NCBI GenBank assembly: GCA_008704415.1
Contig: VXIS01000068.1
Location: 104,263 to 168,262 of the forward strand
Source: Sphaerosporella brunnea
Taxonomy: Eukaryota; Ascomycota; Pezizomycetes; Pezizales; Pyronemataceae
Direction of reading: 5' to 3'
Length of the DNA stretch: 64,000 nt
Part shown: piece by piece, positions 30,089-64,000 of the stretch
Layout: the number at the start of each line of letters is the position of its first letter
Position numbering within the stretch: the stretch's first letter is position 1
Translations under genes and position numbers: made by a program
The notes under the pieces: model-generated
What the model was told of the DNA's origin: nothing
Database searches by the model: none
What the model saw: only the letters and a program-made list of their open reading frames with translations

Positions 30089-30587
30089 GGATATATCCGA
30101 GAGAGTTCTGTACAGTAATGGCGTCGTAATGTAATGCAAATGTTCTGCTTTCTCCTGAGCCAATGTCTTGTTACTCTGGATGTGATTACACGTCGCCATA
30201 GGATAAGGATAGACGAGGAGTTGCTCCCGTGTTCAAGCATTGAGGTCCGAGATTTATTGGCCGAAGGAGAATCTCAAGTTCCATGGGTGTGTAGACTACT
30301 GTACCTGCTTAAATACTTAGGTACCGTCCTCGACAAGTCTCAAGAGTTCCTGCATCAGCAATTGCAAGCCCGGCGGCGTTGAGTGTGCCAAGTCCTAGTT
30401 TAAGGTTTGAGGGTTTAGTCACTCACATTGTCCGACATCCCATCTCATCTTGACGACCAGGGGTGATTGACGCGCCGAACATCATTGCAGTACTTTACAC
30501 GCTCGACGCGCTCCCATCACCTACTACAACTACTACTACAACCACCACCACCACCATCACCACACCACCACGCACGACAATCCTAAA

Positions 30588-32238
30588 ATGAATGACCCAC
30601 CGCCGGTTTCCCCAGAGCTCGCTGCGCTCCGTCACCTTGAAGAGTTCGCGTCGTTCGGCCAGTTCCTCTTCAACTTCGGAACGGACATCCTTGCGCTTCC
30701 TCACGATTTCGGACGGGAGGTGCGCGACAACCTCGTCCCCTCGAGTATTTTTGTATTGACAATGGTTTAGGAGCTCGAAGCCGAAATCTTTACTCCCAAC
30801 TCAGAGATCATGCAGCGAATCTGCTTGGGTCTGCTCAAGATGGTGTCGTCGCAGCGAGGTCTGACATTTGAGAACTTCGAGGAGTATACTCGGCGGCAGT
30901 ACCGTTCGAAAAAGCCCTACGCAAACCCTTTCGGAGACGAAGCGGAACCTATCAAGTTTTGGGATCTCGATGTCCCAACTAGAGCCCGGATCCTGCATCA
31001 ACTGAGTGTGTGGGTCTTCTTACACCCCGAAAGGATCAGAGATAAGTTGAAAACTACAAGCGACAAGGAGCAACTGGAATGGGTACGCTATTCATTGCCG
31101 ATCCTGCTACGTCGCTGAGAATATGACTGACTGGCGCGACAGCGCATGGAGCCCTGTGGCTTTGACTGCCACGGAAATACTTACTACATCCTCGACGATA
31201 ACCGCTTGTACAAGCGCACGCCCTGGGTTTTCGAGTCCAAGAAAGCGAAAGCAGCTAAGCGCACTGGCAAAGCGACAAAGCGACGCCGAGTGTCGTCGGA
31301 ACCGCCCGAGGATGCCTCAGATGAGACGAAGACCCCCGGCGGAGTTTGGTCGTGTGTCTGCGCCACGCTGCATGACTGGACTATCTTTGTCAATAGCATT
31401 GAGAGCTCTAAAGACCCAGACGAGAAGGCGCTGTGCGCTTATCTGAAGCAAGACGTCATGCCCGTGCTCAATAAAGTGTGGGTTGAGATGGAAAAGCAGC
31501 GCCAGCTGCAGGCTGCCGTGGCCAACAGGAAGCGTTCCAGTCGCTTGGATGAAAAGATGGCTCGGCAGCGAGAGGATGAAGAGAGAGCTGCCGCTGAACG
31601 GCGGGAAGCTAAAGAGGTCGCCGCTTCCTTAAAGGATAAGCAGGAAAACGAGAGAAAGGATAAGGTAGCTTCCAATTGCACTCCATCAATGTATTTTTGT
31701 TCAACTAACACGCACTATAGGAGCGTGAACAGCGAATGAAGCTTCGCGAACAGCGTATGAAGGAGCGCGAGATCCAGAAGCTTCAGTCGAGCAGAGCTAC
31801 CTCCGCAACCGACGATTCATCCACTTCAGGAACCCGGCGATCTTCTAGAAGAGCGACCGTCGCAGCTGAAAAGGAGGAGTGGGCGTTTGACTGCATTTGT
31901 GGTGTACATGGAATGAATTATGTACGATTACTCACATGGTCATTCGTTTGTATGGTGCTGGTTGCTGACTTTTCGTTCTTTAGGAGGATGGTACTAACAT
32001 CATCGCGTGCGATTCATGCGATGTATGGCAGCACCTCAAATGCCAGAACCTGCCTCCGGGTGGCGAGGAGAAAGAGTTCATCTGTGATCTCTGCCGCAAG
32101 AACTCGAAACAGGCTGACGGACAGCCACCAAGCCCTTCAGTCATCAAGCTTCGTGTTGGCCCTCCTTCACCAGAGAAGACTCGAGCTTCCGCGCCATCTC
32201 TTGGTGCCTCGTCGGCCGGTATTACCCAGAGCTCTTAA
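30588..32238 (+). CDS. PHD-finger chromatin protein (left-arm copy, intact)
   Basis: Five exons (30588-30719, 30771-31082, 31143-31664, 31721-31921, 31984-32238) join in frame to 473 residues. The N-terminal 170 residues contain 'ELAALRHLEEFASFGQFLFNF' and 'ARILHQLSVWVF', resembling a DDT/WHIM-like helical region of chromatin-remodelling proteins (inference). A Lys/Glu/Arg-rich coiled-coil stretch spans about residues 250-345. The C-terminus is a canonical C4HC3 PHD finger: C380, C382, C398, C401, H406, C409, C423 and C426, split by the last intron. Such fingers commonly read histone H3 tails. I cannot name the orthologue; Ioc2-type or Rsf1-type proteins are candidates. The 5' UTR holds an ACC/ACT-rich tract (about 30,518-30,565). 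A frameshifted mirror copy is at 62,074-63,714. Confidence 0.85.
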
Positions 32239-35200
32239 TAGCTATCAGGCTACAGGCATTAACGGGCGGCCACTTCGCTGGCCCCTGGGTACAAATAAAA
32301 TAGAACAATTCCAATTGATGTACAGACTATAAATCTCTTTGCTCCGCCAATTGCAGGTGGCCCGCTATTCGCTATACCGCTACCATTCGCTTGAATTCCA
32401 CTCTAGAGGTAGATATGTGATGTGAGCGGCCTCTTTTTTGACCCCGTCCGCCAGTAGGGTCGGCAGTGACGGTTCCATCAGAAGCCTGGTCTGTCGCTGG
32501 CAGTGTTGTCAATAGCCAGCCTTAAAAGCCGCAGCCCTATCGGCTGGCTCTCTTAATCAGCCAGCCAAAGGAATGAAGCCCAGCCAGCAGCCCAGGCTGT
32601 GACAAGAGGTGTTCGATGTTCCCTGTTCTTATAAAAACATGGTTGTAGTTCCAAACTCGCGGTGTATCACTCGCAGCCCAGACAACCCACTCGTCCTCAT
32701 TTTGGACAGCCTGGCTAAACCAAACAGCCCGGCTGTTCTCTTTATGTAGCCCGCCCAGCACGCCCGGATTTTTGGGCCGGCTATGTATTAGCTACGTCGA
32801 GCGAGATCAGTCCCGTCTCCTGCTGGTGCCGTGAACAGAAACACGAGCCGAGAATATGCCCTCGCAGCAGCTCAGTGGTTCTATTTGTTATTGAAGCGGT
32901 TGTTTTCTTAGGGTTGGAGTTTGAAGAGATAAATACGATGAAACAACCGCTGATAGGCTTCTTAGAGTTCTTTTTTGTACATATCATATGACGGCTTTGA
33001 ACAAAACTGCTAGTACAGATAGATATGATGTGTGGGGGGATGGGCCGATAGAATCGCAGCTGATAGATTGGGCAGCGAACCTTCTCGTGCGCGTTGCATG
33101 CATGATATCTGATGTATGCGGTCTTGTTCCGGCCGAATTCTTGCCATATATATTTGGAAGCTCAGATTCCCATTTAATGCATTTTCTTCTGCTCGTCACT
33201 CTCTCCTTCGGTACATACCTGCATACCGTTTCGGTTTATTTTTAAGAAAAAAAAAAAACATTTCTCGGGGTGCCGTTTCGGCTTGCCTTTTACATATCAC
33301 CCACCGCCACCGCCATGCACACCACAGCTGCAGCAAAGGTGCGTTTTTACACATTCGGGGGTTTCCCCACAACCACATGGACAGGGTGGTGGTGGTGGGA
33401 TCGGTATGTTATGCATGTGCATAACCGAAAATAGCTTTTTTGGACAGCATCAGTTCGGGGAATGCTTGCTTGCGGGTTCATCAGATCTCACACTGCGTCA
33501 TGGGCAATCAATCCCGACCATCATGTGCAGGTGCCATCAATCCATCCACTTCCTCCCCATCAACATCGATCATATCAGATCAGATGCAGCTTTCCCTTTC
33601 AGGATGAGGGAGGGCCACCCGGGTACAGCAAACAGTACTCCTCCCACCCCCCCCCCCCCAGCCTACTTTGGGCAGCGCAGGGAAAGTGCAAACGGTTGAG
33701 CCACCCGGCCAGATCAGATCCACGAACCACAACTCCTCCACACCCTCCACCTGTCAACGTGACCGGCGCCCTGCGTAGGCCTTCTACCCTAGTCCACCCC
33801 CGGTCCTGGCCACAAAGGATACATCCGGGAGACTTCTCGCTGGCGGCGGTAGTGATTCCGTACGTACCTAAGTGGACACTTGGTACAAACTGGGCCGGGA
33901 AGAGAGAGTGATCTTTGTGCCACACCTCGTCAATCAGACGTGTACCCACCGTGATGCTGATGACGATGATGATGATGTGGGCCAACCACTTTCAGAATTT
34001 TTCTGGATACATTTCTGCCTGGTTCTGAGGCGCACTTTTGCACTTTCGCATCAAGCCGCTTTTTGCACTTTGGGGTGCTTTTTCCCGAGATATGGATGGA
34101 TGATGCGCTCCCCCCCCCCTTCCCCGAAGATGGAGCCCAACCAACCAATCAACTCTGGAACTGCACTTGTGAGATGGAGTATGTGATGAGGGAAGGGTCC
34201 ACCGCGTAGGTAATAGCGTTCGAATAGAATGAATACACCAGCAGCGGCAGCATCGGTATGGCGGAATTGTTTACCACCAGAATCGAGAATCAAACCCACC
34301 CACGTACGGTAACACAGCCCCAACTACTGAAAGCCGTTCCCGTTTTATTGCTATTTTTGATTTTGGTAGCTCATATTTGAGGCCGTGAACGTGCAAAGAA
34401 CTGATATTTGGTTGCGTAAGGCTTGGTGTCCGTCTCAACGGGAAAAATTGTAAACACAATGTTTGGCGTCCAACTCTGTCCGGTCCATTCTTGGACGCTG
34501 GGGCATGGACGGAGCGGCCACATTTGAGGTGGCCAAACCCAGATGCTGCTGCTGCTGCTGCTGCTGCGCGCTGCTGTTCCGCCTCATCTGTCAAGCCCCG
34601 ACTAAACAAAGACTGCGCAGGCCGCCGTTCGGATCCCGAGCGAAGGCCCAGCTCAGCTGTAGCAGTCATGTACCCTTTCCAAACCCAAACCGACGGCCAG
34701 AGACACCAGGGACAAAGAATGCGAAACGGCAGAGGGGCAGTTTAGTTGTGCAGTGTCGTTTGAGGGAAGGGAAGTGGGAAGAAGCGGAGAGCTCGGGCTG
34801 GTTTTTACCCTTGGGGGGTTTTTTTTTTGCCAATTATCAACTACGTATACTACGTCGGCGGCGGGAGCTCGAGCTGGGGGCATGTTCAGTTGTCGATTGC
34901 ATCTCTGTCTATACGTCCTCTCGCCTCTTAGATATCTCTGCTCTGCCTCTGCGACATAGCTACCCGTCCGCCAATCTCTCATTCGTCAACGGGGGTTTTG
35001 TCACAATCCTTACAGCCGCGCGGACCACCACCACCACCACCACCACCGCCACCACCACCACGGCCTGCTGTGATCAGGATATCCCGGCCAGCACCTCAGA
35101 ATAATAAGGCTTCTGGCAGGACCACCAGCACCACCGCCCTCCGGGAAATCTGCCGCACGTCTAGACCGGCACAGGAGAAAATCCGGAAGTGGCCAGCCAC

Positions 35201-36223
35201 AGAATCCGCTGCAGAAGCACTAGCTGGGCTGCTGCTGCTGTGCGTGCCAGTCCGCCCTCGCGCGGGACAGCTTGACAGGTACGGTCCGGCACGCCCGGTT
35301 CCCCAGGGAACTGGTCGGTGGGGCTGCTGTTGTCGTCTGGCAGGTGGCGCAGAAGAGGAAGCAAGCACGCACGCCAGCAAGCAACGTTCTCCGTGTTTTC
35401 GGACGAACATTGCCGTCTGTTCTGTTTTGCCGCTTGCTGTGTTTTGCTTTTTTGCTGGTCCTGTCGTTTTGGATTAATCTGTTTCCTTTTTCCTTTTTCG
35501 CTCTTCGTTTTTCATCGTTGCCGGTCAATCGTATGCACCAGCCCGCCGCTCTTGGATTGTGTTGGCAGCAATTAATTCGTCCCCAGGTAGAGGTTTGGAA
35601 AGACCACGCACGAGTCTCCCAGCTCTTCGCATTCCCTCACTCAACCACCAGAGCTGCTGTTGCAACCGTGTGGTGGCCGATCACTCGCTTCCTTTTGACA
35701 ACGACAGCAATCACAACAACGACCACTCCCATCAATCACCCCCATCGCACCCCCCCCCCCCCCCTCATCTAGTCCATTACCCACATCACCGTACCTGCGC
35801 CGTCGCCTCAGCAGCATCGGTACTGGAGTTCGGTGGCCAGGCCTGCTTCAATTGACAGACAGCCAGGCTGCAGCTTGTCGACAAAGAGGTACGTACCCCT
35901 CATCACACCCGCAGCATGCCCGAGCTCCAATTATGGGGAGAGCTGCAGCAAAGACTTTGACTTAAGAGTCGGCTGCCATTCCCTCGTTGTCTTTCAAGCT
36001 CTATTGCGTTTTCTACGTTTACACAACTGATACTCACAGTCGTCGTCGCACGACAGTTTTTCAGACCAGCTTCAAAAAAAAAAAACAAAAACAAAAAAAA
36101 AAAAAAACGGATCTCAGTTCACATCATAGTGTACTCGGTTCCAAGAGCTTTTGAAAAAGAGTGTGTAGGCTGCGATACACAACTGCGACGCCACCGTCGA
36201 GCGCCAATATATCGGTTCATCTC
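32239..36223. other. Long upstream region of the HMG-box gene
   Basis: Almost 4 kb without a supportable gene. It contains a hAT-like relic (32,501-32,793), an A run (about 33,246-33,258), C runs (about 33,647-33,659 and 35,751-35,766), a CTG tract (about 34,544-34,566), a CAC tract (about 35,027-35,060) and two A runs near 36,076-36,107. Pyrimidine-rich composition and occasional GTACGT-like donors suggest a long, perhaps spliced, leader for the downstream gene (inference). Confidence 0.4.
32501..32793 (+). mobile_element. Possible non-autonomous hAT-like relic (left-arm copy)
   Basis: Begins CAGTGTTGTCAATAGCCAGCC, which resembles hAT terminal repeats. The interior is full of AGCC/GGCTGG motifs in both orientations, like subterminal repeats. 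The right end 'ggccggctatgtatta' matches the expected inverted end only partly, and I see no clear 8-bp target duplication. Confidence 0.3.
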
Positions 36224-38281
36224 ATGTCATCAGCAGTGGAAACGACCCAGTACCAGTACCGAGCGGTAACTCCCTCGTACGGCTTTTCTTGCGCACCCCA
36301 CGGCCTGGAGTTAGAAAGACTTACTCCTCCGCGCTCCGCTTCGGATCACTCGTTTCTGCTTCCAACGCACCCGTCAACACCGCAAGAGTTCATTCCTGGC
36401 AATTCGTACTACCTCCACTCACCAGCACACACTCCGTATCTGGAAGGCTCGCCGCCCAGCGACAGACAGAACTTCGAGAGTAATGTCAGTACAGTGTTCA
36501 ACCTGGGACTGTGTTTGTTGTCTGACAGCGCATTTGCAGCACGAGTTGAGACTTCCACCTCGATCCGGCATGTTCATGAAGGAAGAGGACGAAATCTCGC
36601 TGCTGGTAGGATGCTTTGCACTCAGTAGTTGCTATCGATGATGCTGATTCTGTGACAGGGCGGGCCATACCTATCGGGCGACTACAGCATGGATGGCAGA
36701 GTGAGTAGTACTCTAAATCTGCGCGCTATAGTGGAACAAGGCTCACTGTTGTTTCTAGAGCGGTGATCGTGTTTTTGAGACATGGGATGAAACAGTAAGA
36801 CAGCCGTCCCATCTTCTACACGTGCCATCATTCGGCCCGTAAGGTCTGCGCTCACGTCTCAGCTATCACAGGTGGAACACACCCTACCTTCGCCGACACC
36901 GTCAGCTGAAGATTGTCTCCGAGGTCTTTCCGGCAGTCCAGAGTCAAAGCAAGAGGATAAACCAGCCAGCAAGTCCAAGGTCAGCCGCGCACCAAGGAAA
37001 CGCAAGACCCCTGGCGATAAACCCGACAAACCGAAGCTTCCCAAACTGATCAAACCTTTGAGCGAGTTGACCCAGGAGTACCACGACCTGCCCATCCGTA
37101 ATATGGAGAGCTGGGTCAATAGGTCTGCGGAAACACGCTGGAAGGAAGTTGAGAAGCGTGGAGGCTACGTCACTCGCCCCATGAACTCCTTCATGCTTTA
37201 TCGATCAGCCTTTGCGGAGCGCACGAAGATGTGGTGTCTTCAAAACAACCACCAGGTTGTGTCCTCTGTCAGTGGTGAGAGTTGGCCCTTGGAACCAGAG
37301 GAGATTCGCCAGAAGTATAATGAGCTTGCCCGGATCGAACGTGTGAACCACCAGGCCGCTCATCCAGGCTACAAGTTCTCGCCCAGCAAGGCACTGAACA
37401 ACCGAAAGCGCAAAGGATCCAAGCCCGACGACGATACCGCATCTGCTATCAGCGAGCTAGATGACTTCGATTCACTAGGTGGAGGGCACGTGGAGGCCGC
37501 TTCGCCGGACCCGCGTCCAGCCAAAAAGCCTCAGCGAAATAGAAGGCGGGCGCAGAAGGCCAGCGACCTCTGTGGGGGCACCACGGGGAGCTCACAGGCG
37601 TATATGGGCTTTTCTTACGAGCCCGAGAGTGGCGGTGCCATCAGATCCAGCTTCAACCATAACAACCCCGGCAGGACGCCGCCAGTGAACATGGGAACCC
37701 AGGACATGAGCGGACAGTACTACCAAACTACTGTGCGGGCCAGTCCTGTTACCCCGCTCCCAAATCCTCTGCCCACAACCGTCATCGAGGACGTCACAAT
37801 TCGCAAGACACCGGGTCCGACGGCGCTGTCACTGCAGCAACAGTTTTTGCAGGCGGGAATGCACCCCCAGATCAAAACGGAGCCAGCGACTGATAACTCC
37901 AAGGTCGATCCTTTGCTCCTTGGGTCTGGCCAGGAGGGCGGGTTCCTGACCGAGCCGTACAACCAGCCGAATATACTGCCCAGCCACTTTTTGCAGGACA
38001 CTGCAGGTGGAGACTTTGAGTTTGGAAACGAGCAGTTGTTTGCTGGAGCGGGGCCGATGATAGATACTGGCTTGGACGGGTTTAGCACGGAGGGAATGGC
38101 TTTCAGTGAACAGGCTCTGATGGACGGGAGCATCGATGTGAGCAAGCTGCCAGGGTACTGTGAGAACTTGGGGCCGTTTTTGGACAATCAGGAGCCGTGG
38201 AGCATTGAGGAGACGGCGACCATTGGTGGAGGCGAGGGGCTGGAAGGGGCGGATCTGTGCTATGATGAATGGTTGCAGTAA
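36224..38281 (+). CDS. HMG-box transcription factor (left-arm copy, intact)
   Basis: Five exons (36224-36484, 36540-36605, 36659-36700, 36759-36794, 36872-38281) all join in phase 0 to 604 residues. Three consecutive exons are only 66, 42 and 36 nt. The HMG box is at about residues 235-307, from 'GYVTRPMNSFMLYRSAFAER' through 'QKYNELARIERVNHQAAHPGYKFSPSK'. This is the sequence-specific (MATA/SOX-like) type with RPMNSFMLYR. A basic segment precedes it (about residues 170-195) and another follows (NRKRKGS). The C-terminal 250 residues are Pro/Gly/acidic, probably an activation region. I do not assign it to a named regulator; sexual-development HMG factors are the closest type (inference). The box starts too late for a MAT1-2-1 protein. 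The last exon begins with GTG in frame, so the protein does not start there. Confidence 0.85.
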
Positions 38282-39099
38282 CTAAGGGCTCGCCCTTCCC
38301 TTTTCCTTTTCACTCGGTTTCTTCCTTTTGTGGTTTGCAATTTGATTTTTCTCGACTTGAACTGTTGATGGGTAGATTTCTTTTTTTTTTTCTTTTCTTT
38401 TTTTCTGCTTCTCTGTCTTTTCCACCGGCGTAATGGAAAAAATCATGGTGTGGGGTTGCGGTGTTTTTCTTTTTCTTTTTCTCTTTTCTTTTTGAGTACC
38501 ATTTTTTATTTTGTTGGTTTGCATCTTTGTCGCGTTTTTTTCTTCTTCTTGGGTTCCTTTTCTTCAAATTTGTGCTAGCTCTTGATCATATATATCAAAT
38601 GCATGTTTTTGGCGAGAGTGGAGCTCCGGGGCCGGGGCGGGTGTTTTTTGTATTTTCACGTTTTTCTTTTGTCGATTTCTTTTGTGCTCTTGTGGGTTTT
38701 TGTGGCCGTATGTGGGTAAGTAGATTATTTGATTTGTTTGGCGAGTTTGATGTTAGGCTTTTTTTTGGGGAGGGAGGGGATGAAGGGGGGAGGATATGTG
38801 GGATGTATGCTGATCATGAGATTATACTTGATAGAGTAGATTAGATGCTAGATGCCAGCTTGATCATGGTACCTGCATAGACTACCTATGCCTGCGGCTT
38901 GGGCGGGCTCGGGTTTAATGGATTTTGATTTGATGTTGACTTGTTGACCTTGTGGTGAGTGAAGAGTGTTGATGCATTTATGGCCATGGGGTTTGTATAT
39001 ACGATTTTCTTCTCTCGCTGACAGCTGGACGTACCTGTGCTGGGCTTATCACTCGGTGTAGTGCTAAAATAACAACAACAAAGTGAAGGCAGGTAGATA

Positions 39100-39579
39100 C
39101 AGTACTAGGACAAAAAGAATGGGATAAGTCGCAGTTTTCCTAGTTTTACAGCTAAATCACTCACTTTTCACCACCTTACCAAAAATCACCATTTGGTCCA
39201 AAAAATTGACCGCTGGCCAGGAAAGTAGAAAAACACATGAAATTCAATCTCCGAAGAATCTGAAAAAAAAGAGAGCAAAATTGGAGGTGCTATGAGCTGG
39301 GAGGCGGTGTTGAGAGCTTTTCGGAAGGCGATTTTGTATGGGGCCCCATACAAAAAGTGACTTGACAACGGCCTTTGCACACTCTGCCAGCTCGTCACGC
39401 AACGCCAACACCTTTTTTTTCTTAATCTGCCACCAGAAATGAAGATTCAAGATAGTTATTTAGCGTTCTGCATGGCGGAGCAAATTTATAAATTGCGTGG
39501 TGGTGGTTAGATAGAGGTCTCAACACGAGCACTTTGGCGGTGAAAGCGCAAATATCCCATTCTTTTTGTCCTGTGACTG
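39100..39579. mobile_element. Tc1/mariner-like MITE (left-arm copy)
   Basis: A 480-bp segment starts CAGTACTAGGACAAAAAG and ends with the inverted counterpart CTTTTTGTCCTGTGACTG. The inverted ends match at about 24 of 27 positions and are flanked by TA on both sides (39,098-39,099 and 39,580-39,581), the Tc1/mariner target duplication. There is no transposase ORF. Inside lies a perfect 24-bp palindrome centred on GGGGCCCC (39,332-39,355). Confidence 0.75.
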
Positions 39580-41103
39580 TACATTAGGTATTTGGGTAAG
39601 TACTTACTTGTTCTTTGTCCTGGTGAAATTAAGAGCGCCAACTATCATGCTGAGGTATGTATCTAGGTTTTTGGGGGATATGGAGGCATCTACTCTAGCT
39701 GGCCATGGCTGGGGATGGCATCGAAAAGCACCTGTACGGCATCGGAGTCGCCATCAATCGCAAGTTCGGACTGCAGCTTTGGGTCCAGTCCGCTCAAATA
39801 GAGTATTTACTGAGGTTAGGGATGGGGGGTTAGGTTTGAGTGATACATGGTGACTTGAAGGGACGTTACCGAGAAGTATACTCGACATCTAGAACCAGGA
39901 ATAGGCTACACTACAAAGTTTCGCTTCAATGTGGATTTTACATGTGATGGTATTCTGAAGGCCACGGGCAAAGAAGACATCGATCAACGGGGAGCAGAAT
40001 TGGAACCCGAAAACCTTCATCGTGACATATGTAAATTTCCCCGTTGACTCACATCTACTAGGCCAGACACGAAGCCTAACCTTGAGGATCGAGAGACATA
40101 GAGTTGTGTTCTCTTCGAAGCTGGAGCTTCGGACTTTCAGCCGGGGGGTCGGCGTTACAGGCAGCAGCGAAGGCGGTGATGATGGTGATGGTGATGAGGA
40201 TGATGGATCCTCAACTCACGCAATTGGTTGCGCAAACCTTCCGATGCGCGCGCGCAACGTTAGTTGAAGTCTGGCTCTGCGCAACGCAACCAGCGGACGC
40301 GTGTCCGTCTCCGGTGTGTTGATTATTGATCATGAACACCGGCGCCAGCACCAACAGCGACAGTGAACACCACTGCTCAGTAGTTGCCTAGGAAACTCAC
40401 AAGGCAGGGGCCACCACGTCCCATGCAGCCAGGCCCCCCCGGGTTTTCTGCACTGGCGATGACTCACAGTCGGCCTCCGGGACAATGCATTCGGGCCCAC
40501 AGCACATCTCGGAACGCAGCCGCAGACTTCCTCTGCAGGGTGCAAGACACGCCAGGAGAAGTCCAAGGGCGCAGCACATCTCGTGTGGAAGAGCAGTGGC
40601 CACTTGTCGCGTTCGCGGTTGCCTAGAGATGGTGGATGGGTGGGCTTCAAAGCCGCAGCAGCAAGCAAGCATACATGCTGATTGAGCGAGATGCGAGACG
40701 TGAGTGCTGCGCCCCGCAATCTAATTGGAACGACCGCCCCTTCTGGCACTTGGGTCCTTATTCCTTCGGCTGTTGGCCAATCATGGCTGCGAACAAACGA
40801 CCCCACGAATACGATCGTGAATCCAGCCGCGTCTTCGTTTTTCTGCTCTGCTGGGTTTGTGCAGAGCAGCACTCACGGTACCTTGGCTGTGTGTCCATAT
40901 GTGCATGCGCCTAACTGACTTTGCCCACCCCCCACCCGCACTGAAAAAAAAACCCCTCCACCCACACACAACACCCTCCCTCGCTCCCCTGCGCTATAAG
41001 TATTAGCTCATCCCCCACCCTCTTCGCTTTTTCTTCTTGTCCTCCTTCATCCCTCAGCGAATATACCCAACCCACCCACATATTATTGCAGCCCACGCCC
41101 ATC

Positions 41104-41115
41104 ATGGACGCTTAA
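41104..41115 (+). promoter_or_regulatory. uORF1 of the cpcA-type gene (MDA-stop)
   Basis: A minimal three-codon upstream ORF, ATG GAC GCT TAA. In the GCN4/cpc-1/cpcA family a tiny first uORF allows the small subunit to keep scanning and is needed for induction under amino-acid starvation. Its size and place relative to the longer second uORF match that arrangement. Confidence 0.75.
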
Positions 41116-41290
41116 ACGGAATCCCCGTCAAAACCCTTCTCAAGTAGTTGTTTTTAAGGAAAGCCGCAACCACGCATTCCTCAGAGATCTTAGGATTTCT
41201 GTCTCCATCAACATCGCTCTGCGACAGTAACCCCCCAAGGACAGCAACCATTCTTCCTCCGGAAGTACCCACTTTTAACGACAACCAACC

Positions 41291-41476
41291 ATGGCTTTCC
41301 CCAACCCCTCACCAGAGGCATTCGCCGCACTTGAACCAACAAGCTCCAGACGCTCAGCCGCATCCCAGCAGCCCAGCTCCACCAGCTCTGCTTGCACATT
41401 TCGAGCAAACGCACATCCCGAGCACACCGAGTTTCAACGACCCTGTGCTTTTCCCAGCGCCGAGGAGTGTCCCTAA
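41291..41476 (+). promoter_or_regulatory. uORF2 of the cpcA-type gene (61 codons)
   Basis: The ORF begins MAFPNPSPEAF with a good context (accATGG) and ends 268 nt before the main ATG. In cpcA/cpc-1 genes a longer second uORF blocks translation of the main ORF when ternary complex is abundant. It is in a different frame from the bZIP ORF. Confidence 0.7.
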
Positions 41477-41744
41477 CCAATCTCAACACCGAACTTCATC
41501 TCTGCAAAATCGTAGAGTGAGCGAAATTGTTAACGGTCTCGGATACAACACATCGCCGGCCTCTTTCAGTCATCGGTCTCCCGTTTCATCCTATCCTACT
41601 ACCCAACCGCACCCCGATCTCCAATACCGACAGCCAGACGCTACCTCCTCTCATCAGTCGCAGCAGTCTCCTATTCTTGATCCCCATCTCGCTGCGAGGT
41701 ACTACAACCGGAAAGTCGCCGACTTCGCTCCGCACAGGTCCACC

Positions 41745-45637: not shown

Positions 45638-45676
<39 letters not shown>

Positions 45677-47155: not shown

Positions 47156-47156
47156 G

Positions 47157-48636: not shown

Positions 48637-48675
<39 letters not shown>

Positions 48676-50514: not shown

Positions 50515-50623
50515 GTGGTATCGACACCGACAGCACAGCGCTTGGCTACGATGCTGTCTGTCTGTGTGTGTGTGTGTGTGTTTGATCAAGAGATTATTGT
50601 TTCAGTTCGATCCCTGCAGTGGG
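50515..50623 (+). pseudogene. tRNA-Arg(ACG) relic (right-arm copy)
   Basis: Mirror of 43,711-43,818, with the TG tract at about 50,572-50,581 inside the intron position and the same broken T and acceptor arms. Confidence 0.75.
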
Positions 50624-51865: not shown

Positions 51866-52609
51866 TTACACGCCAGCGCCTTTGGACAAAGCGATGTTCT
51901 TCCAGTGCTCCACTTGCGCCTTGAGATCCTCAATCATCGCCTCCATCTCGTCCATCTTCTCGGCCTTCTTCGCTCGCGATTTCCTCGCCGCCAGCGTGTT
52001 CCTCGCACGCTTAAGCGCGACGATATCGCTGGGGTCCTCAACCACGATGGGCGGGAGCGGCTGCTGACGCTTCCTCACACCGGATGTGGAGGAGCGCTTT
52101 TGCATTCGGGTCGAGTCAGAGAACTTGGGAGAAGTCTCGGGGGAGGCGGTACTCTCTCGCGAGTCGTTCTTGACGATTATGTCTGCGATCATCGCCTGGT
52201 GAGTGGGAGCAGCCGACGCGGAGCTGTCCTCCGAGTCCTGGTTTACCTCCGGGAAGAGCGAGTACCAGTTGTCGCCGTTGGTATCCTCGGCACCGAACAG
52301 AGGCGACGTCTCGTAGCCCTCCGACGGGGAGTCGAAGAGGTACGGAGACGAGAATGTCGGCGTCGGCATGGAGGGGTTCATGGTGACTTCTGAAGGCGAC
52401 ACAGTGGTGCCGCAGAGATCCGTGCCTATGAGCGGGGAAAATTCGGATCCGAGTCCAAGCTCGGGGGTGGTTGCCCACAGATCCTCGCCCCAAATGTCTG
52501 GATCAACGATTTTCATTTGATCTGAGGAGCGGGCGTCAACCGTCATGAACAAGCGAGAGGAGCGGTGCACGTGGGCAGCCGCAGAAAACAGGTAATTACC
52601 TTGAGTCAT
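51866..52609 (-). CDS. cpcA: CpcA/Gcn4-type bZIP activator (right-arm copy)
   Basis: Mirror copy of 41,745-42,488 with the same 221-residue product. Exons are 52600-52609 and 51866-52521, and the intron is 52522-52599. This is the one multi-domain gene that reads open in both arms. Its uORFs are also mirrored. If the palindrome is an assembly artefact, there is only one cpcA gene. Confidence 0.9.
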   Translation of the reverse strand: MTQGNYLFSAAAHVHRSSRLFMTVDARSSDQMKIVDPDIWGEDLWATTPELGLGSEFSPLIGTDLCGTTVSPSEVTMNPSMPTPTFSSPYLFDSPSEGYETSPLFGAEDTNGDNWYSLFPEVNQDSEDSSASAAPTHQAMIADIIVKNDSRESTASPETSPKFSDSTRMQKRSSTSGVRKRQQPLPPIVVEDPSDIVALKRARNTLAARKSRAKKAEKMDEMEAMIEDLKAQVEHWKNIALSKGAGV

Positions 52610-52877
52610 GGTGGACCTGTGCGGAGCGAAGTCGGCGACTTTCCGGTTGTAGTACCTCGCAGCGAGATGGGGATCAAGAATAGGAGACTGCTGCGACTGA
52701 TGAGAGGAGGTAGCGTCTGGCTGTCGGTATTGGAGATCGGGGTGCGGTTGGGTAGTAGGATAGGATGAAACGGGAGACCGATGACTGAAAGAGGCCGGCG
52801 ATGTGTTGTATCCGAGACCGTTAACAATTTCGCTCACTCTACGATTTTGCAGAGATGAAGTTCGGTGTTGAGATTGG

Positions 52878-53063
52878 TTAGGGACACTCCTCGGCGCTGG
52901 GAAAAGCACAGGGTCGTTGAAACTCGGTGTGCTCGGGATGTGCGTTTGCTCGAAATGTGCAAGCAGAGCTGGTGGAGCTGGGCTGCTGGGATGCGGCTGA
53001 GCGTCTGGAGCTTGTTGGTTCAAGTGCGGCGAATGCCTCTGGTGAGGGGTTGGGGAAAGCCAT
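52878..53063 (-). promoter_or_regulatory. uORF2 of cpcA (right-arm copy)
   Basis: Mirror of the 61-codon uORF at 41,291-41,476, same peptide. Confidence 0.7.
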
Positions 53064-53251
53064 GGTTGGTTGTCGTTAAAAGTGGGTACTTCCGGAGGAA
53101 GAATGGTTGCTGTCCTTGGGGGGTTACTGTCGCAGAGCGATGTTGATGGAGACAGAAATCCTAAGATCTCTGAGGAATGCGTGGTTGCGGCTTTCCTTAA
53201 AAACAACTACTTGAGAAGGGTTTTGGGGGGGGGGGGGGACGGGGATTCCGT

Positions 53252-53263
53252 TTAAGCGTCCAT
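53252..53263 (-). promoter_or_regulatory. uORF1 of cpcA (right-arm copy)
   Basis: Mirror of the MDA-stop uORF. Immediately downstream of it this copy has a run of 14 G on the plus strand (53,225-53,238) that the left arm lacks. Confidence 0.7.
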
Positions 53264-54785
53264 GATGGGCGTGGGCTGCAATAATATGTGGGTGGGTTGG
53301 GTATATTCGCTGAGGGATGAAGGAGGACAAGAAGAAAAAGCGAAGAGGGTGGGGATGAGCTAATACTTATAGCGCAGGGGAGCGAGGGAGGGTGTTGTGT
53401 GTGGGTGGAGGGGTTTTTTTTTTCAGTGCGGGTGGGGGGTGGGCAAAGTCAGTTAGGCGCATGCACATATGGACACACAGCCAAGGTACCGTGAGTGCTG
53501 CTCTGCACAAACCCAGCAGAGCAGAAAAACGAAGACGCGGCTGGATTCACGATCGTATTCGTGGGGTCGTTTGTTCGCAGCCATGATTGGCCAACAGCCG
53601 AAGGAATAAGGACCCAAGTGCCAGAAGGGGCGGTCGTTCCAATTAGATTGCGGGGCGCAGCACTCACGTCTCGCATCTCGCTCAATCAGCATGTATGCTT
53701 GCTTGCTGCTGCGGCTTTGAAGCCCACCCATCCACCATCTCTAGGCAACCGCGAACGCGACAAGTGGCCACTGCTCTTCCACACGAGATGTGCTGCGCCT
53801 TGGACTTCTCCTGGCGTGTCTTGCACCCTGCAGAGGAAGTCTGCGGCTGCGTTCCGAGATGTGCTGTGGGCCCGAATGCATTGTCCCGGAGGCCGACTGT
53901 GAGTCATCGCCAGTGCAGAAAACCCGGGGGGGCCTGGCTGCATGGGACGTGGTGGCCCCTGCCTTGTGAGTTTCCTAGGCAACTACTGAGCAGTGGTGTT
54001 CACTGTCGCTGTTGGTGCTGGCGCCGGTGTTCATGATCAATAATCAACACACCGGAGACGGACACGCGTCCGCTGGTTGCGTTGCGCAGAGCCAGACTTC
54101 AACTAACGTTGCGCGCGCGCATCGGAAGGTTTGCGCAACCAATTGCGTGAGTTGAGGATCCATCATCCTCATCACCATCACCATCATCACCGCTTCGCTG
54201 CTGCCTGTAACGCCGACCCCCCGGCTGAAAGTCCGAAGCTCCAGCTTCGAAGAGAACACAACTCTATGTCTCTCGATCCTCAAGGTTAGGCTTCGTGTCT
54301 GGCCTAGTAGATGTGAGTCAACGGGGAAATTTACATATGTCACGATGAAGGTTTTCGGGTTCCAATTCTGCTCCCCGTTGATCGATGTCTTCTTTGCCCG
54401 TGGCCTTCAGAATACCATCACATGTAAAATCCACATTGAAGCGAAACTTTGTAGTGTAGCCTATTCCTGGTTCTAGATGTCGAGTATACTTCTCGGTAAC
54501 GTCCCTTCAAGTCACCATGTATCACTCAAACCTAACCCCCCATCCCTAACCTCAGTAAATACTCTATTTGAGCGGACTGGACCCAAAGCTGCAGTCCGAA
54601 CTTGCGATTGATGGCGACTCCGATGCCGTACAGGTGCTTTTCGATGCCATCCCCAGCCATGGCCAGCTAGAGTAGATGCCTCCATATCCCCCAAAAACCT
54701 AGATACATACCTCAGCATGATAGTTGGCGCTCTTAATTTCACCAGGACAAAGAACAAGTAAGTACTTACCCAAATACCTAATGTA

Positions 54786-55261
54786 CAGTCACAGGACAAA
54801 AAGAATGGGATATTTGCGCTTTCACCGCCAAAGTGCTCGTGTTGAGACCTCTATCTAACCACCACCACGCAATTTATAAATTTGCTCCGCCATGCAGAAC
54901 GCTAAATAACTATCTTGAATCTTCATTTCTGGTGGCAGATTAAGAAAAAAAAGGTGTTGGCGTTGCGTGACGAGCTGGCAGAGTGTGCAAAGGCCGTTGT
55001 CAAGTCACTTTTTGTATGGGGCCCCATACAAAATCGCCTCCGAAAAGCTCTCAACACCGCCTCCCAGCTCATAGCACCTCCAATTTTGCTCTCTTTTTTT
55101 TCAGATTCTTCGGAGATTGAATTCATGTGTTTTTCTACTTTCCTGGCCAGCGGTCAATTTTTGGACCAAATGGTGATTTTTGGTAAGGTGGTGAAAAGTG
55201 AGTGATTTAGCTGTAAACTAGGAAAACTGCGACTTATCCCATTCTTTTTGTCCTAGTACTG
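54786..55261. mobile_element. Tc1/mariner-like MITE (right-arm copy)
   Basis: Mirror of 39,100-39,579, 476 bp, with TA on both sides (54,784-54,785 and 55,262-55,263). It is a few bases shorter because of indels. Confidence 0.75.
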
Positions 55262-56079
55262 TATCTACCTGCCTTCACTTGTTGTTGTTATTTTAGCACT
55301 ACACCGAGTGATAAGCCCAGCACAAGGTACGTCCAGCTGTCAGCGAGAGAAGAAAATCGTATATACAAACCCCATGGCCATAATGCATCAACACTCTTCA
55401 CTCACCACAAGGTCAACAAGTCAACATCAAATCAAAATCCATTAAACCCCGAGCCCGCCCAAGCCGCAGGCATAGGTAGTCTATGCAGGTACCATGATCA
55501 AGCTGGCATCTAGCATCTAATCTACTCTATCAAGTATAATCTCATGATCAGCATACATCCCACATATCCTCCCCCCTTCATCCCCTCCCTCCCCAAAAAA
55601 AAGCCTAACATCAAACTCGCCAAACAAATCAAATAATCTACTTACCCACATACGGCCACAAAAACCCACAAGAGCACAAAAGAAATCGACAAAAGAAAAA
55701 CGTGAAAATACAAAAAACACCCGCCCCGGCCCCGGAGCTCCACTCTCGCCAAAAACATGCATTTGATATATATGATCAAGAGCTAGCACAAATTTGAAGA
55801 AAAGGAACCCAAGAAGAAGAAAAAAACGCGACAAAGATGCAAACCAACAAAATAAAAAATGGTACTCAAAAAGAAAAGAGAAAAAGAAAAAGAAAAACAC
55901 CGCAACCCCACACCATGATTTTTTCCATTACGCCGGTGGAAAAGACAGAGAAGCAGAAAAAAAGAAAAGAAAAAAAAAAAGAAATCTACCCATCAACAGT
56001 TCAAGTCGAGAAAAATCAAATTGCAAACCACAAAAGGAAGAAACCGAGTGAAAAGGAAAAGGGAAGGGCGAGCCCTTAG

Positions 56080-58136
56080 TTACTGCAACCATTCATCATA
56101 GCACAGATCCGCCCCTTCCAGCCCCTCGCCTCCACCAATGGTCGCCGTCTCCTCAATGCTCCACGGCTCCTGATTGTCCAAAAACGGCCCCAAGTTCTCA
56201 CAGTACCCTGGCAGCTTGCTCACATCGATGCTCCCGTCCATCAGAGCCTGTTCACTGAAAGCCATTCCCTCCGTGCTAAACCCGTCCAAGCCAGTATCTA
56301 TCATCGGCCCCGCTCCAGCAAACAACTGCTCGTTTCCAAACTCAAAGTCTCCACCTGCAGTGTCCTGCAAAAAGTGGCTGGGCAGTATATTCGGCTGGTT
56401 GTACGGCTCGGTCAGGAACCCGCCCTCCTGGCCAGACCCAAGGAGCAAAGGATCGACCTTGGAGTTATCAGTCGCTGGCTCCGTTTTGATCTGGGGTGCA
56501 TTCCCGCCTGCAAAAACTGTTGCTGCAGTGACAGCGCCGTCGGACCCGGTGTCTTGCGAATTGTGACGTCCTCGATGACGGTTGTGGGCAGAGGATTTGG
56601 GAGCGGGGTAACAGGACTGGCCCGCACAGTAGTTTGGTAGTACTGTCCGCTCATGTCCTGGGTTCCCATGTTCACTGGCGGCGTCCTGCGGGGTTGTTAT
56701 GGTTGAAGCTGGATCTGATGGCACCGCCACTCTCGGGCTCGTAAGAAAAGCCCATATACGCCTGTGAGCTCCCCGTGGTGCCCCCACAGAGGTCGCTGGC
56801 CTTCTGCGCCCGCCTTCTATTTCGCTGAGGCTTTTTGGCTGGACGCGGGTCCGGCGAAGCGGCCTCCACGTGCCCTCCACCTAGTGAATCGAAGTCATCT
56901 AGCTCGCTGATAGCAGATGCGGTATCGTCGTCGGGCTTGGATCCTTTGCGCTTTCGGTTGTTCAGTGCCTTGCTGGGCGAGAACTTGTAGCCTGGATGAG
57001 CGGCCTGGTGGTTCACACGTTCGATCCGGGCAAGCTCATTATACTTCTGGCGAATCTCCTCTGGTTCCAAGGGCCAACTCTCACCACTGACAGAGGACAC
57101 AACCTGGTGGTTGTTTTGAAGACACCACATCTTCGTGCGCTCCGCAAAGGCTGATCGATAAAGCATGAAGGAGTTCATGGGGCGAGTGACGTAGCCTCCA
57201 CGCTTCTCAACTTCCTTCCAGCGTGTTTCCGCAGACCTATTGACCCAGCTCTCCATATTACGGATGGGCAGGTCGTGGTACTCCTGGGTCAACTCGCTCA
57301 AAGGTTTGATCAGTTTGGGAAGCTTCGGTTTGTCGGGTTTATCGCCAGGGGTCTTGCGTTTCCTTGGTGCGCGGCTGACCTTGGACTTGCTGGCTGGTTT
57401 ATCCTCTTGCTTTGACTCTGGACTGCCGGAAAGACCTCGGAGACAATCTTCAGCTGACGGTGTCGGCGAAGGTAGGGTGTGTTCCACCTGTGATAGCTGA
57501 GACGTGAGCGCAGACCTTACGGGCCGAATGATGGCACGTGTAGAAGATGGGACGGCTGTCTTACTGTTTCATCCCATGTCTCAAAAACACGATCACCGCT
57601 CTAGAAACAACAGTGAGCCTTGTTCCACTATAGCGCGCAGATTTAGAGTACTACTCACTCTGCCATCCATGCTGTAGTCGCCCGATAGGTATGGCCCGCC
57701 CTGTCACAGAATCAGCATCATCGATAGCAACTACTGAGTGCAAAGCATCCTACCAGCAGCGAGATTTCGTCCTCTTCCTTCATGAACATGCCGGATCGAG
57801 GTGGAAGTCTCAACTCGTGCTGCAAATGCGCTGTCAGACAACAAACACAGTCCCCAGGTTGAACACTGTACTGACATTACTCTCGAAGTTCTGTCTGTCG
57901 CTGGGCGGCGAGCCTTCCAGATACGGAGTGTGTGCTGGTGAGTGGAGGTAGTACGAATTGCCAGGAATGAACTCTTGCGGTGTTGACGGGTGCGTTGGAA
58001 GCAGAAACGAGTGATCCGAAGCGGAGCGCGGAGGAGTAAGTCTTTCTAACTCCAGGCCGTGGGGTGCGCAAGAAAAGCCGTACGAGGGAGTTCCGCTCGG
58101 TACTGTGTACTGGGTCGTTTCCACTGCTGATGACAT
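56080..58136 (-). pseudogene. HMG-box factor, frameshifted copy (right arm)
   Basis: Mirror of 36,224-38,281. The HMG box itself is open (about 56,985-57,215), but single-base losses break the frame. Examples are ccccGcagg for ccccGGcagg near 56,692 and one C missing from a run near 56,496; the first exon has further indels near 58,105-58,115. No substitutions seen. Probably consensus errors, not a real pseudogene. Confidence 0.75.
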
Positions 58137-61100
58137 GAGATGAACCGATATATTGGCGCTCGACGGTGGCGTCGCAGTTGTGTATCGCAGCCTACACACT
58201 CTTTTTCAAAAGCTCTTGGAACCGAGTACACTATGATGTGAACTGAGATCCGTGTTTTTGTTTTTTTTTGAAGCTGGTCTGAAAAACTGTCGTGCGACGA
58301 CGACTGTGAGTATCAGTTGTGTAAACGTAGAAAACGCAATAGAGCTTGAAAGACAACGAGGGAATGGCAGCCGACTCTTAAGTCAAAGTCTTTGCTGCAG
58401 CTCTCCCCATAATTGGAGCTCGGGCATGCTGCGGGTGTGATGAGGGGTACGTACCTCTTTGTCGACAAGCTGCAGCCTGGCTGTCTGTCAATTGAAGCAG
58501 GCCTGGCCACCGAACTCCAGTACCGATGCTGCTGAGGCGACGGCGCAGGTACGGTGATGTGGGTAATGGACTAGATGAGTGCGATGGGGGTGATTGATGG
58601 GAGTGGTCGTTGTTGTGATTGCTGTCGTTGTCAAAAGGAAGCGAGTGATCGGCCACCACACGGTTGCAACAGCAGCTCTGGTGGTTGAGTGAGGGAATGC
58701 GAAGAGCTGGGAGACTCGTGCGTGGTCTTTCCAAACCTCTACCTGGGGACGAATTAATTGCTGCCAACACAATCCAAGAGCGGCGGGCTGGTGCATACGA
58801 TTGACCGGCAACGATGAAAAACGAAGAGCGAAAAAGGAAAAAGGAAACAGATTAATCCAAAACGACAGGACCAGCAAAAAAGCAAAACACAGCAAGCGGC
58901 AAAACAGAACAGACGGCAATGTTCGTCCGAAAACACGGAGAACGTTGCTTGCTGGCGTGCGTGCTTGCTTCCTCTTCTGCGCCACCTGCCAGACGACAAC
59001 AGCAGCCCCACCGACCAGTTCCCTGGGGAACCGGGCGTGCCGGACCGTACCTGTCAAGCTGTCCCGCGCGAGGGCGGACTGGCACGCACAGCAGCAGCAG
59101 CCCAGCTAGTGCTTCTGCAGCGGATTCTGTGGCTGGCCACTTCCGGATTTTCTCCTGTGCCGGTCTAGACGTGCGGCAGATTCCCGGAGGGCGGTGGTGC
59201 TGGTGGTCCTGCCAGAAGCCTTATTATTCTGAGGTGCTGGCCGGGATATCCTGATCACAGCAGGCCGTGGTGGTGGTGGCGGTGGTGGTGGTGGTGGTGG
59301 TGGTCCGCGCGGCTGTAAGGATTGTGACAAAACCCCCGTTGACGAATGAGAGATTGGCGGACGGGTAGCTATGTCGCAGAGGCAGAGCAGAGATATCTAA
59401 GAGGCGAGAGGACGTATAGACAGAGATGCAATCGACAACTGAACATGCCCCCAGCTCGAGCTCCCGCCGCCGACGTAGTATACGTAGTTGATAATTGGCA
59501 AAAAAAAACCCCCCAAGGGTAAAAACCAGCCCGAGCTCTCCGCTTCTTCCCACTTCCCTTCCCTCAAACGACACTGCACAACTAAACTGCCCCTCTGCCG
59601 TTTCGCATTCTTTGTCCCTGGTGTCTCTGGCCGTCGGTTTGGGTTTGGAAAGGGTACATGACTGCTACAGCTGAGCTGGGCCTTCGCTCGGGATCCGAAC
59701 GGCGGCCTGCGCAGTCTTTGTTTAGTCGGGGCTTGACAGATGAGGCGGAACAGCAGCGCGCAGCAGCAGCAGCAGCAGCAGCATCTGGGTTTGGCCACCT
59801 CAAATGTGGCCGCTCCGTCCATGCCCCAGCGTCCAAGAATGGACCGGACAGAGTTGGACGCCAAACATTGTGTTTACAATTTTTCCCGTTGAGACGGACA
59901 CCAAGCCTTACGCAACCAAATATCAGTTCTTTGCACGTTCACGGCCTCAAATATGAGCTACCAAAATCAAAAATAGCAATAAAACGGGAACGGCTTCAGT
60001 AGTTGGGGCTGTGTTACCGTACGTGGGTGGGTTTGATTCTCGATTCTGGTGGTAAACAATTCCGCCATACCGATGCTGCCGCTGCTGGTGGTATTCATTC
60101 TATTCGAACGCTATTACCTACGCGGTGGACCCTTCCCTCATCACATACTCCATCTCACAAGTGCAGTTCCAGAGTTGATTGGTTGGTTGGGCTCCATCTT
60201 CGGGGAAGGGGGGGGGGAGCGCATCATCCATCCATATCTCGGGAAAAAGCACCCCAAAGTGCAAAAAGCGGCTTGATGCGAAAGTGCAAAAGTGCGCCTC
60301 AGAACCAGGCAGAAATGTATCCAGAAAAATTCTGAAAGTGGTTGGCCCACATCATCATCATCGTCATCAGCATCACGGTGGGTACACGTCTGATTGACGA
60401 GGTGTGGCACAAAGATCACTCTCTCTTCCCGGCCCAGTTTGTACCAAGTGTCCACTTAGGTACGTACGGAATCACTACCGCCGCCAGCGAGAAGTCTCCC
60501 GGATGTATCCTTTGTGGCCAGGACCGGGGGGTGACTAGGGTAGAAGGCCTACGCAGGGCGCCGGTCACGTTGACAGGTGGAGGGTGTGGAGGAGTTGTGG
60601 TTCGTGGATCTGATCTGGCCGGGTGGCTCAACCGTTTGCACTTTCCCTGCGCTGCCCAAAGTAGGCTGTGGGAGGAGTACTGTTTGCTGTACCCGGGTGG
60701 CCCTCCCTCATCCTGAAAGGGAAAGCTGCATCTGATCTGATATGATCGATGTTGATGGGGAGGAAGTGGATGGATTGATGGCACCTGCACATGATGGTCG
60801 GGATTGATTGCCCATGACGCAGTGTGAGATCTGATGAACCCGCAAGCAAGCATTCCCCGAACTGATGCTGTCCAAAAAAGCTATTTTCGGTTATGCACAT
60901 GCATAACATACCGATCCCACCACCACCACCCTGTCCATGTGGTTGTGGGGAAACCCCCGAATGTGTAAAAACGCACCTTTGCTGCAGCTGTGGTGTGCAT
61001 GGCGGTGGCGGTGGGTGATATGTAAAAGGCAAGCCGAAACGGCACCCCGAGAAATGTTTTTTTTTCTTAAAAATAAACCGAAACGGTATGCAGGTATGTA

Positions 61101-61519
61101 CCGAAGGAGAGAGTGACGAGCAGAAGAAAATGCATTAAATGGGAATCTGAGCTTCCAAATATATATGGCAAGAATTCGGCCGGAACAAGACCGCATACAT
61201 CAGATATCATGCATGCAACGCGCACGAGAAGGTTCGCTGCCCAATCTATCAGCTGCGATTCTATCGGCCCATCCCCCCACACATCATATCTATCTGTACT
61301 AGCAGTTTTGTTCAAAGCCGTCATATGATATGTACAAAAAAGAACTCTAAGAAGCCTATCAGCGGTTGTTTCATCGTATTTATCTCTTCAAACTCCAACC
61401 CTAAGAAAACAACCGCTTCAATAACAAATAGAACCACTGAGCTGCTGCGAGGGCATATTCTCGGCTCGTGTTTCTGTTCACGGCACCAGCAGGAGACGGG
61501 ACTGATCTCGCTCGACGTA

Positions 61520-61811
61520 GCTAATACATAGCCGGCCCAAAAATCCGGGCGTGCTGGGCGGGCTACATAAAGAGAACAGCCGGGCTGTTTGGTTTAGCCA
61601 GGCTGTCCAAAATGAGGACGAGTGGGTTGTCTGGGCTGCGAGTGATACACCGCGAGTTTGGAACTACAACCATGTTTTTATAAGAACAGGGAACATCGAA
61701 CACCTCTTGTCACAGCCTGGGCTGCTGGCTGGGCTTCATTCCTTTGGCTGGCTGATTAAGAGAGCCAGCCGATAGGGCTGCGGCTTTTAAGGCTGGCTAT
61801 TGACAACACTG
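61520..61811 (-). mobile_element. Possible hAT-like relic (right-arm copy)
   Basis: Mirror of 32,501-32,793, ending CAGTG on the minus strand at 61,811. Confidence 0.3.
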
Positions 61812-62073
61812 CCAGCGACAGACCAGGCTTCTGATGGAACCGTCACTGCCGACCCTACTGGCGGACGGGGTCAAAAAAGAGGCCGCTCACATCACATATC
61901 TACCTCTAGAGTGGAATTCAAGCGAATGGTAGCGGTATAGCGAATAGCGGGCCACCTGCAATTGGCGGAGCAAAGAGATTTATAGTCTGTACATCAATTG
62001 GAATTGTTCTATTTTATTTGTACCCAGGGGCCAGCGAAGTGGCCGCCCGTTAATGCCTGTAGCCTGATAGCTA

Positions 62074-63714
62074 TTAAGAGCTCTGGGTAATACCGGCCGA
62101 CGAGGCACCAAGAGATGGCGCGGAAGCTCGAGTCTTCTCTGGTGAAGGAGGGCCAACACGAAGCTTGATGACTGAAGGGCTTGGTGGCTGTCCGTCAGCC
62201 TGTTTCGAGTTCTTGCGGCAGAGATCACAGATGAACTCTTTCTCCTCGCCACCCGGAGGCAGGTTCTGGCATTTGAGGTGCTGCCATACATCGCATGAAT
62301 CGCACGCGATGATGTTAGTACCATCCTCCTAAAGAACGAAAAGTCAGCAACCAGCACCATACAAACGAATGACCATGTGAGTAATCGTACATAATTCATT
62401 CCATGTACACCACAAATGCAGTCAACGCCCACTCCTCCTTTTCAGCTGCGACGGTCGCTCTTCTAGAAGATCGCCGGGTTCCTGAAGTGGATGAATCGTC
62501 GGTTGCGGAGGTAGCTCTGCTCGACTGAAGCTTCTGGATCTCGCGCTCCTTCATACGCTGTTCGCGAAGCTTCATTCGCTGTTCACGCTCCTATAGTGCG
62601 TGTTAGTTGAACAAAAATACATTGATGGAGTGCAATTGGAAGCTACCTTATCCTTTCTCTCGTTTCCTGCTTATCCTTTAAGGAAGCGGCGACCTCTTTA
62701 GCTTCCGCCGTTCAGCGGCAGCTCTCTCTTCATCCTCTCGCTGCCGAGCCATCTTTCATCCAAGCGACTGAACGCTTCCTGTTGGCCACGGCAGCCTGCA
62801 GCTGGCGCTGCTTTTCCATCTCAACCCACACTTTATTGAGCACGGGCATGACGTCTTGCTTCAGATAAGCGCACAGCGCCTTCTCGTCTGGGTCTTTAGA
62901 GCTCTCAATGCTATTGACAAAGATAGTCCAGTCATGCAGCGTGGCGCAGACACACGACCAAACTCCGCCGGGGGTCTTCGTCTCATCTGAGGCATCCTCG
63001 GGCGGTTCCGACGACACTCGGCGTCGCTTTGTCGCTTTGCCAGTGCGCTTAGCTGCTTTCGCTTTCTTGGACTCGAAACCCAGGGCGTGCGCTTGTACAA
63101 GCGGTTATCGTCGAGGATGTAGTAAGTATTTCCGTGGCAGTCAAAGCCACAGGGCTCCATGCGCTGTCGCGCCAGTCAGTCATATTCTCAGCGACGTAGC
63201 AGGATCGGCAATGAATAGCGTACCCATTCCAGTTGCTCCTTGTCGCTTGTAGTTTTCAACTTATCTCTGATCCTTTCGGGGTGTAAGAAGACCCACACAC
63301 TCAGTTTGATGCAGGATCCGGGCTCTAGTTGGGACATCGAGATCCCAAAACTTGATAGGTTCCGCTTCGTCTCCGAAAGGGTTTGCGTAGGCTTTTTCGA
63401 ACGGTACTGCCGCCGAGTATACTCCTCGAAGTTCTCAATGTCAGACCTCGCTGCGACGACACCATCTTGAGCAGACCCAAGCAATTCGCTGCATGATCTC
63501 TGAGTTGGGAGTAAAGATTTCGGCTTCGAGCTCCTAAACCATTGTCAATACAAAAATACTCGAGGGGACGAGGTTGTCGCGCACCTCCCGTCCGAAATCG
63601 TGAGGAAGCGCAAGGATGTCCGTTCCGAAGTTGAAGAGGAACTGGCCGAACGACGCGAACTCTTCAAGGTGACGGAGCGCAGCGAGCTCTGGGGAAACCG
63701 CGGTGGGTCATCAT
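62074..63714 (-). pseudogene. PHD-finger protein, frameshifted copy (right arm)
   Basis: Mirror of 30,588-32,238 with many single-base losses: one A just after the start codon, one T in catttgag, one C in agccctacg, one T in ggttttcg, one C in gttccagtc and one A in gaaaagatg. One A is gained in catcaactg. The PHD exon (near 62,100-62,330) is still readable. All changes noted are indels, most in homopolymers. Confidence 0.75.
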
Positions 63715-64000
63715 TTTAGGATTGTCGTGCGTGGTGGTGTGGTGATGGTGGTGGTGGTGGTTGTAGTAGTAGTTGTAGTAGTGATGGGAGCGCGTCGAGC
63801 GTGTAAAGTACTGCAATGATGTTCGGCGCGTCATCCCCCGGTCGTCAAGATGAGATGGGATGTCGGACAATGTGAGTGACTAACCCTCAAACCTTAACTA
63901 GGACTTGGCACACTCAACGCCGCCGGGCTTGCATTGCTGATGCAGGAACTCTTGAGACTTGTCGAGGACTACCTAAGTATTTAAGCAGGTACAGTAGTCT

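Follow-up and report, generated by a model that had tools for sequence, protein, structure and literature searches.

Organization of the locus

The window, by which we mean the whole 64-kb stretch of DNA analyzed, corresponds to positions 104263-168262 of contig C606. As this contig is 168,262 bp long, position 64000 of the window is also its last base. From position 30293 onwards, the window is occupied by one long inverted repeat of 33.7 kb with its axis at position 47156. The arms of this palindrome carry a gene for an Rsc7/Swp82 subunit, an HMG-box reading frame, a bZIP-like reading frame and a dispersed repeat, each present once per arm (Table 1). Outside the palindrome, both strands of the window carry tRNA genes that closely resemble each other, four in all over 14 kb (4782-4867, 16027-16106, 17585-17668 and 18755-18840; up to 96% alike).

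In a self-BLAST of the window, 30293-64000 matched itself with 99.06% identity over 33,865 columns, with 5 mismatches and 144 gap openings, where it should be noted that each difference is counted twice. When the arms were aligned to each other, 16,760 of 16,931 columns (99.0%) were identical, with the right arm being 19 nt shorter than the left. A preliminary description had reported a near-perfect palindrome of more than 33 kb reaching the window edge, with reverse-complement arms of about 16.85 kb and a 1-nt spacer at 47,156, and both comparisons bear this out. A chance origin is out of the question. The two halves match the same place on opposite strands and next to nothing lies between them, as is expected of a fold-back, and such an event most likely produced the right arm as its return strand.

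Table 1 Features of the window (window positions) and terminal palindromes found at the ends of other contigs.
Feature	Location	Strand	Description
Left arm	30293..47155	+	16,863 nt; adjoins the contig's unique sequence (self-BLAST and arm alignment)
Left-arm counterpart of contig tip	30293..31900	.	18 indels, 17 of them bases absent from the right arm; 11.2 indels/kb
HMG-box ORF	36791..38281	+	496 aa; left arm, open
Dispersed repeat, ~490 nt	39094..39584	+	Inside left arm, mirrored in right; many genomic copies, up to 98% identical among the matches listed
bZIP-like ORF	41148..42488	+	446 aa; left arm, open
Rsc7/Swp82 gene, left-arm copy	45568..47155	-	Cut at centre; frame broken by indels, matched only in pieces with stops
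Centre	47156..47156	.	1-nt spacer; 49 nt on either side pair exactly
Rsc7/Swp82 subunit gene, right-arm copy	47156..48751	+	PF08624; frame open, cut at palindrome centre
Right arm	47157..64000	-	16,844 nt; reverse complement of left arm, reaches last base of C606
bZIP-like ORF, right-arm copy	51866..53206	-	446 aa; open as well
HMG-box ORF, right-arm copy	56080..57568	-	Split into two frames; two right-arm deletions in arm alignment
Terminal palindrome	C604, right end		27.9 kb; outer 4,941 columns 99.94%; spacer 7 nt
Terminal palindrome	C100, right end		20.9 kb; 93.2% at centre, 97.4% at tip, indel-rich; spacer 10 nt
Terminal palindrome	C625, left end		45.6 kb by its tips; 999/999 at tip; spacer 114 nt
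Terminal palindrome	C30, left end		3.5 kb, 99.8%; spacer 0 nt; within a repeat whose copies are 7.3 kb apart
Terminal palindrome	C610, left end		14.4 kb; 2,964 columns compared, with 16 gap openings and no mismatch; spacer 0 nt
Terminal palindrome	C600, left end		4.7 kb of tandem repeat, 99.7%; spacer 16 nt

Differences between the arms

The alignment of the arms contains 67 gap events. Of these, 56 involve a single base and 60 fall within homopolymer runs, some of these runs being shortened by 12-17 bases on one arm. All of the 16 mismatched columns lie beside gaps or, in ten cases, in one offset stretch at 45196-45209, and are by-products of the alignment; true substitutions between the arms are few, if any. 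As the indels are mostly homopolymeric and there are hardly any substitutions, while mutation of a real duplication would add substitutions, these differences point to read error rather than to divergence. Moreover, were the duplication real, the two arms would be expected to have been polished equally, whereas many homopolymer indels are found on each.

As for the direction of the gaps, the right arm is short in 42 and the left arm in 25. The indel density is highest at the contig tip, with 1.7-6.5 indels per kb outside the outermost 1.6 kb, as compared to 11.2 per kb at the tip. At about 40.9-45.3 kb, however, it is the left arm that is shorter in 13 of 14 indels, so that the errors are not restricted to the right arm and a simple picture of a good left and a bad right arm does not fit. 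The open frame likewise alternates between the arms by gene, being found on the right arm for Rsc7/Swp82 and on the left arm for the HMG-box protein. It may be that for each stretch just one of the arms was polished, as occurs when reads can be placed at either of two sites with equal ease.

The gene interrupted at the centre

The frame that leaves the centre rightward encodes an Rsc7/Swp82 subunit of chromatin-remodelling complexes (PF08624, E 6.9e-55), and nine indels separate its two copies in the arm alignment. The nearest named relative is a 665-residue protein of Trichophaea hybrida (82% over the query), from which the fungus probably belongs to the Pezizales. Similarity to this protein starts at residue 125/126, exactly at the centre base, and both copies accordingly are without about 125 N-terminal codons. 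In the Trichophaea protein, these 125 residues match Pyronema (E 7e-49), Terfezia (E 1e-23) and Morchella (E 5e-21). As the N-terminus is thus conserved, it should be recognizable if it were present in the assembly.

Our search of the assembly did not find it. The best matches (E 0.115 and 0.205) lie at unrelated places, and the idea that the missing 5' part is found on another contig was rejected on these grounds. Nor was a whole copy of the gene found in the assembly, where the only other hit was a 45% relative on C342. The true sequence past 47156, with the upstream part of the gene, probably lies in an assembly gap. It should be considered, however, that the presence of only headless copies and no whole gene would be explained by a real terminal deletion as well as by such a gap.

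The contig end and its surroundings

The palindrome stops exactly where the contig stops. The preliminary description had taken the right arm to run on past the window and had proposed looking beyond 64,000 for a mirror of 1-30,292; this did not hold, as the contig is over at its mirrored tip. A palindrome that continues into independent flanking sequence, as a real duplication would be expected to do, is therefore not what is seen. In a whole-contig self-comparison, the remaining 134.5 kb of C606 gave no inverted match longer than 193 bp at the threshold used. A telomere at the contig end was considered and rejected, as telomere-like repeats gave no match in the window (four short patterns) or in the whole of C606 (three to four short patterns).

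A search of the junction with nanopore and PacBio adapter sequences gave no match there and only weak scattered ones (6 edits) away from it; this result neither supports nor refutes an artefact. The possibility of a second, unduplicated copy of the arm was likewise rejected, since a 1,151-nt piece and a 300-nt piece of the tip match only the two arms, apart from one 55-nt match at 85%. For a 10-kb piece of the arm, the matches listed consist of the mirror copy, copies of dispersed repeats and one 36-nt match. Two dispersed-repeat families within the arm have many copies elsewhere, while the arm itself is found in no other place among the matches listed.

Terminal palindromes at other contig ends

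To survey other contigs, we used probes of 90 or 80 nt from 53 ends of 39 contigs and looked for a mirror match of each on its own contig. Sixty ends had been fetched, of which seven were dropped beforehand as repetitive or to keep the query short (the left ends of C100, C200, C350 and C450 and the right ends of C450, C590 and C625). At least six of the 53 ends, about one in nine, carry terminal palindromes, ranging from 3.5 to 45.6 kb (Table 1). This number should be considered a lower bound, as in one probe batch the matches listed were mostly those of an rDNA-like probe, and neither the control from C606 nor four of the 16 self-matches were among them; in the other three batches, the self-matches were complete (17/17, 10/10 and 10/10).

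All six palindromes were confirmed by reading the tip and the centre, and for C604, C100, C625 and C610 the identities refer to those parts. The arms of C100 show 73 mismatches and 89 gap openings at the centre. In C625, the axis given by the tip and that given by the centre are 741 positions apart (halves of the sums 45590 and 44849), so its arms differ by a change in length in their middle part; we counted this end because both its tip and its centre mirror. The spacer of C610 was read by eye from the centre sequence, as the automatic count chose a longer run further out. The repeat in which the C30 palindrome lies is likely rDNA.

Two further ends were not counted, namely the right end of C640 (93.9%, with 63 mismatches, 10 gap openings and tandem copies) and the left end of C607 (46 nt, 89%). 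The former, an inverted repeat about 3 kb long and rich in substitutions, may be old and of natural origin. The right end of C590 is nothing but T for 90 bases or more, which is probably a further artefact of assembly ends. Tandem repeats at spacings of about 7.3 kb, likely the rDNA, and of about 6.8 kb were seen on several contigs.

When the seven centres, including that of C606, were compared, no shared sequence beyond chance was found, the best cross-match being 14 nt with an E value of 0.017. Neither a recurring terminal sequence nor a resolvase-like motif, one of which would be expected at hairpin ends, was thus seen at these turns. What does recur, in unrelated parts of one data set, is the palindrome itself, as is expected of fold-backs.

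Origin of the palindrome

The preliminary description had left open three explanations, namely a long-read fold-back artefact, a recent inverted duplication at a chromosome end or break, and a breakage-fusion product. Of these, the first is favored over the other two, because the palindrome is over exactly at the contig end, a conserved gene is cut in both copies and at least six of 53 other ends are palindromic. From the sequence, we estimate the probability that the 33.7-kb palindrome is a sequencing or assembly artefact, arising from the fold-back of a DNA molecule or read, at roughly 0.95. A DNA molecule or read would have run through the left arm up to 47156 and there reversed, returning along its own complement, and the assembler would then have used it to extend C606 past the edge of real coverage and into the gap. 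The source would be one or a few chimeric molecules, the turn would have arisen during DNA handling, amplification or library preparation rather than in the cell, and the right arm would be absent from the real genome. Palindromes at about one in nine ends, in unrelated sequences and each over with its contig, point to the data rather than to an accident of one chromosome. Against an artefact count the rarity of fold-back reads in ordinary nanopore genomic DNA and the left-arm errors at 40.9-45.3 kb. Since fold-back reads are rare (about 0.6%) and usually outvoted, at least six palindromic ends among 53 would imply an unusually chimeric library or amplified DNA.

Should the turns instead be real, the cell would contain hairpin-closed or mirror-duplicated DNA ends at numerous sites of chromosome breakage, where long reads would turn and contigs would end as palindromes. 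We consider this very improbable as a whole, and its specific forms are more doubtful still. Had a broken chromosome end undergone a true inverted duplication, by a breakage-fusion-bridge cycle or by the fold-back of a small hairpin followed by synthesis, the break would have occurred in the Rsc7/Swp82 gene, with loss of the distal part and fusion of the sisters. The near lack of a spacer at the centre is consistent with this, as is the absence of the Rsc7/Swp82 N-terminus from the assembly, which a terminal deletion with fold-back would leave. Such an event would, however, deprive the genome of any complete copy of a conserved gene that is at most single-copy here (the other genomic hit being the 45% relative), would need to have recurred independently at several unrelated places and does not account for a contig that is over exactly at the mirrored tip, so that we regard it as extremely unlikely.

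We give just as little credence to a covalently closed hairpin end, belonging to a hairpin-capped chromosome or to extrachromosomal linear DNA, in which case the genome would hold one arm and reading round the end would yield the palindrome. The short spacers at several contig ends (0, 0, 1, 7, 10 and 16 nt, with one of 114) do fit hairpin loops, and hairpin-capped DNA has been proposed in the formation of copy-number variants in yeast (PMC10766183). Yet some of the turns would lie within genes and others within rDNA-like or tandem-repeat sequence, no motif is common to them, a conserved gene would be interrupted, and no telomere-like or terminal repeat feature recurs. Lastly, in a pure assembler error, the path through the graph would have passed from the contig end to the reverse complement of the contig with no chimeric read involved. 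Such an error would likewise sit at a contig end and recur within one assembly, but it requires that the end already overlapped with itself in a self-complementary way. At the centre, few bases pair with each other, and these could belong to the true gene, as similarity to relatives reaches the centre base. The probability of a pure assembler error is accordingly close to nil.

The palindrome is most likely without importance as biology, and its value is that of a warning. About 16.8 kb of C606, with the Rsc7/Swp82, HMG-box and bZIP-like genes, are likely counted twice and, judging from the ends sampled, it may be common for the assembly's 1,280 contig ends to carry terminal palindromes. Gene counts, apparent recent duplications and inverted repeats derived from this assembly should thus be filtered for palindromes at contig ends. 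Were the turns real, on the other hand, hairpin ends would have to pervade a fungal genome, a startling prospect.

Comparison with known systems

Our literature queries on palindromic or missed-adapter assemblies, in which all terms were required, returned nothing. Among related systems, the case resembles the hairpin-capped intermediates and inverted copy-number variants of yeast in its large inverted repeats and short spacers, but the yeast cases (PMC10766183) are tied to pre-existing short inverted repeats and were verified in cells, and in this they differ from the present one. For nanopore reads across inverted-duplicate junctions, PMC7229812 describes the second half of a self-complementary read as being of lower quality and slightly shorter. 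The present case is similar in that the tip of the right arm has the most missing bases and the right arm is the shorter by 19 nt; it differs in that the inverted duplications described there are real copy-number variants, and in that the quality near the centre of our palindrome is poorer on the left arm.

Other parallels are found among artefacts. Palindromic chimeras are described in PMC6218980 as being common after whole-genome amplification and as damaging de novo assemblies. The likeness lies in the artificial palindromes, which in long reads impair de novo assembly, with the difference that the DNA studied here need not have been amplified. For long-read data, PMC12870357 describes fold-back reads whose halves are joined without an adapter. 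There, those with no sequence between the halves make up about 0.55-0.6% of genomic reads in the nanopore libraries studied, and proportions of up to 20-30% are cited for some tumour samples. The palindromes seen here share with these reads the near-perfect concatenation of forward and reverse strands, often with no sequence in between, and the occurrence at unrelated places. They differ in that the artefact described there is seen in single reads compared to a reference, whereas here the fold-backs would be built into the contig ends of a finished assembly.
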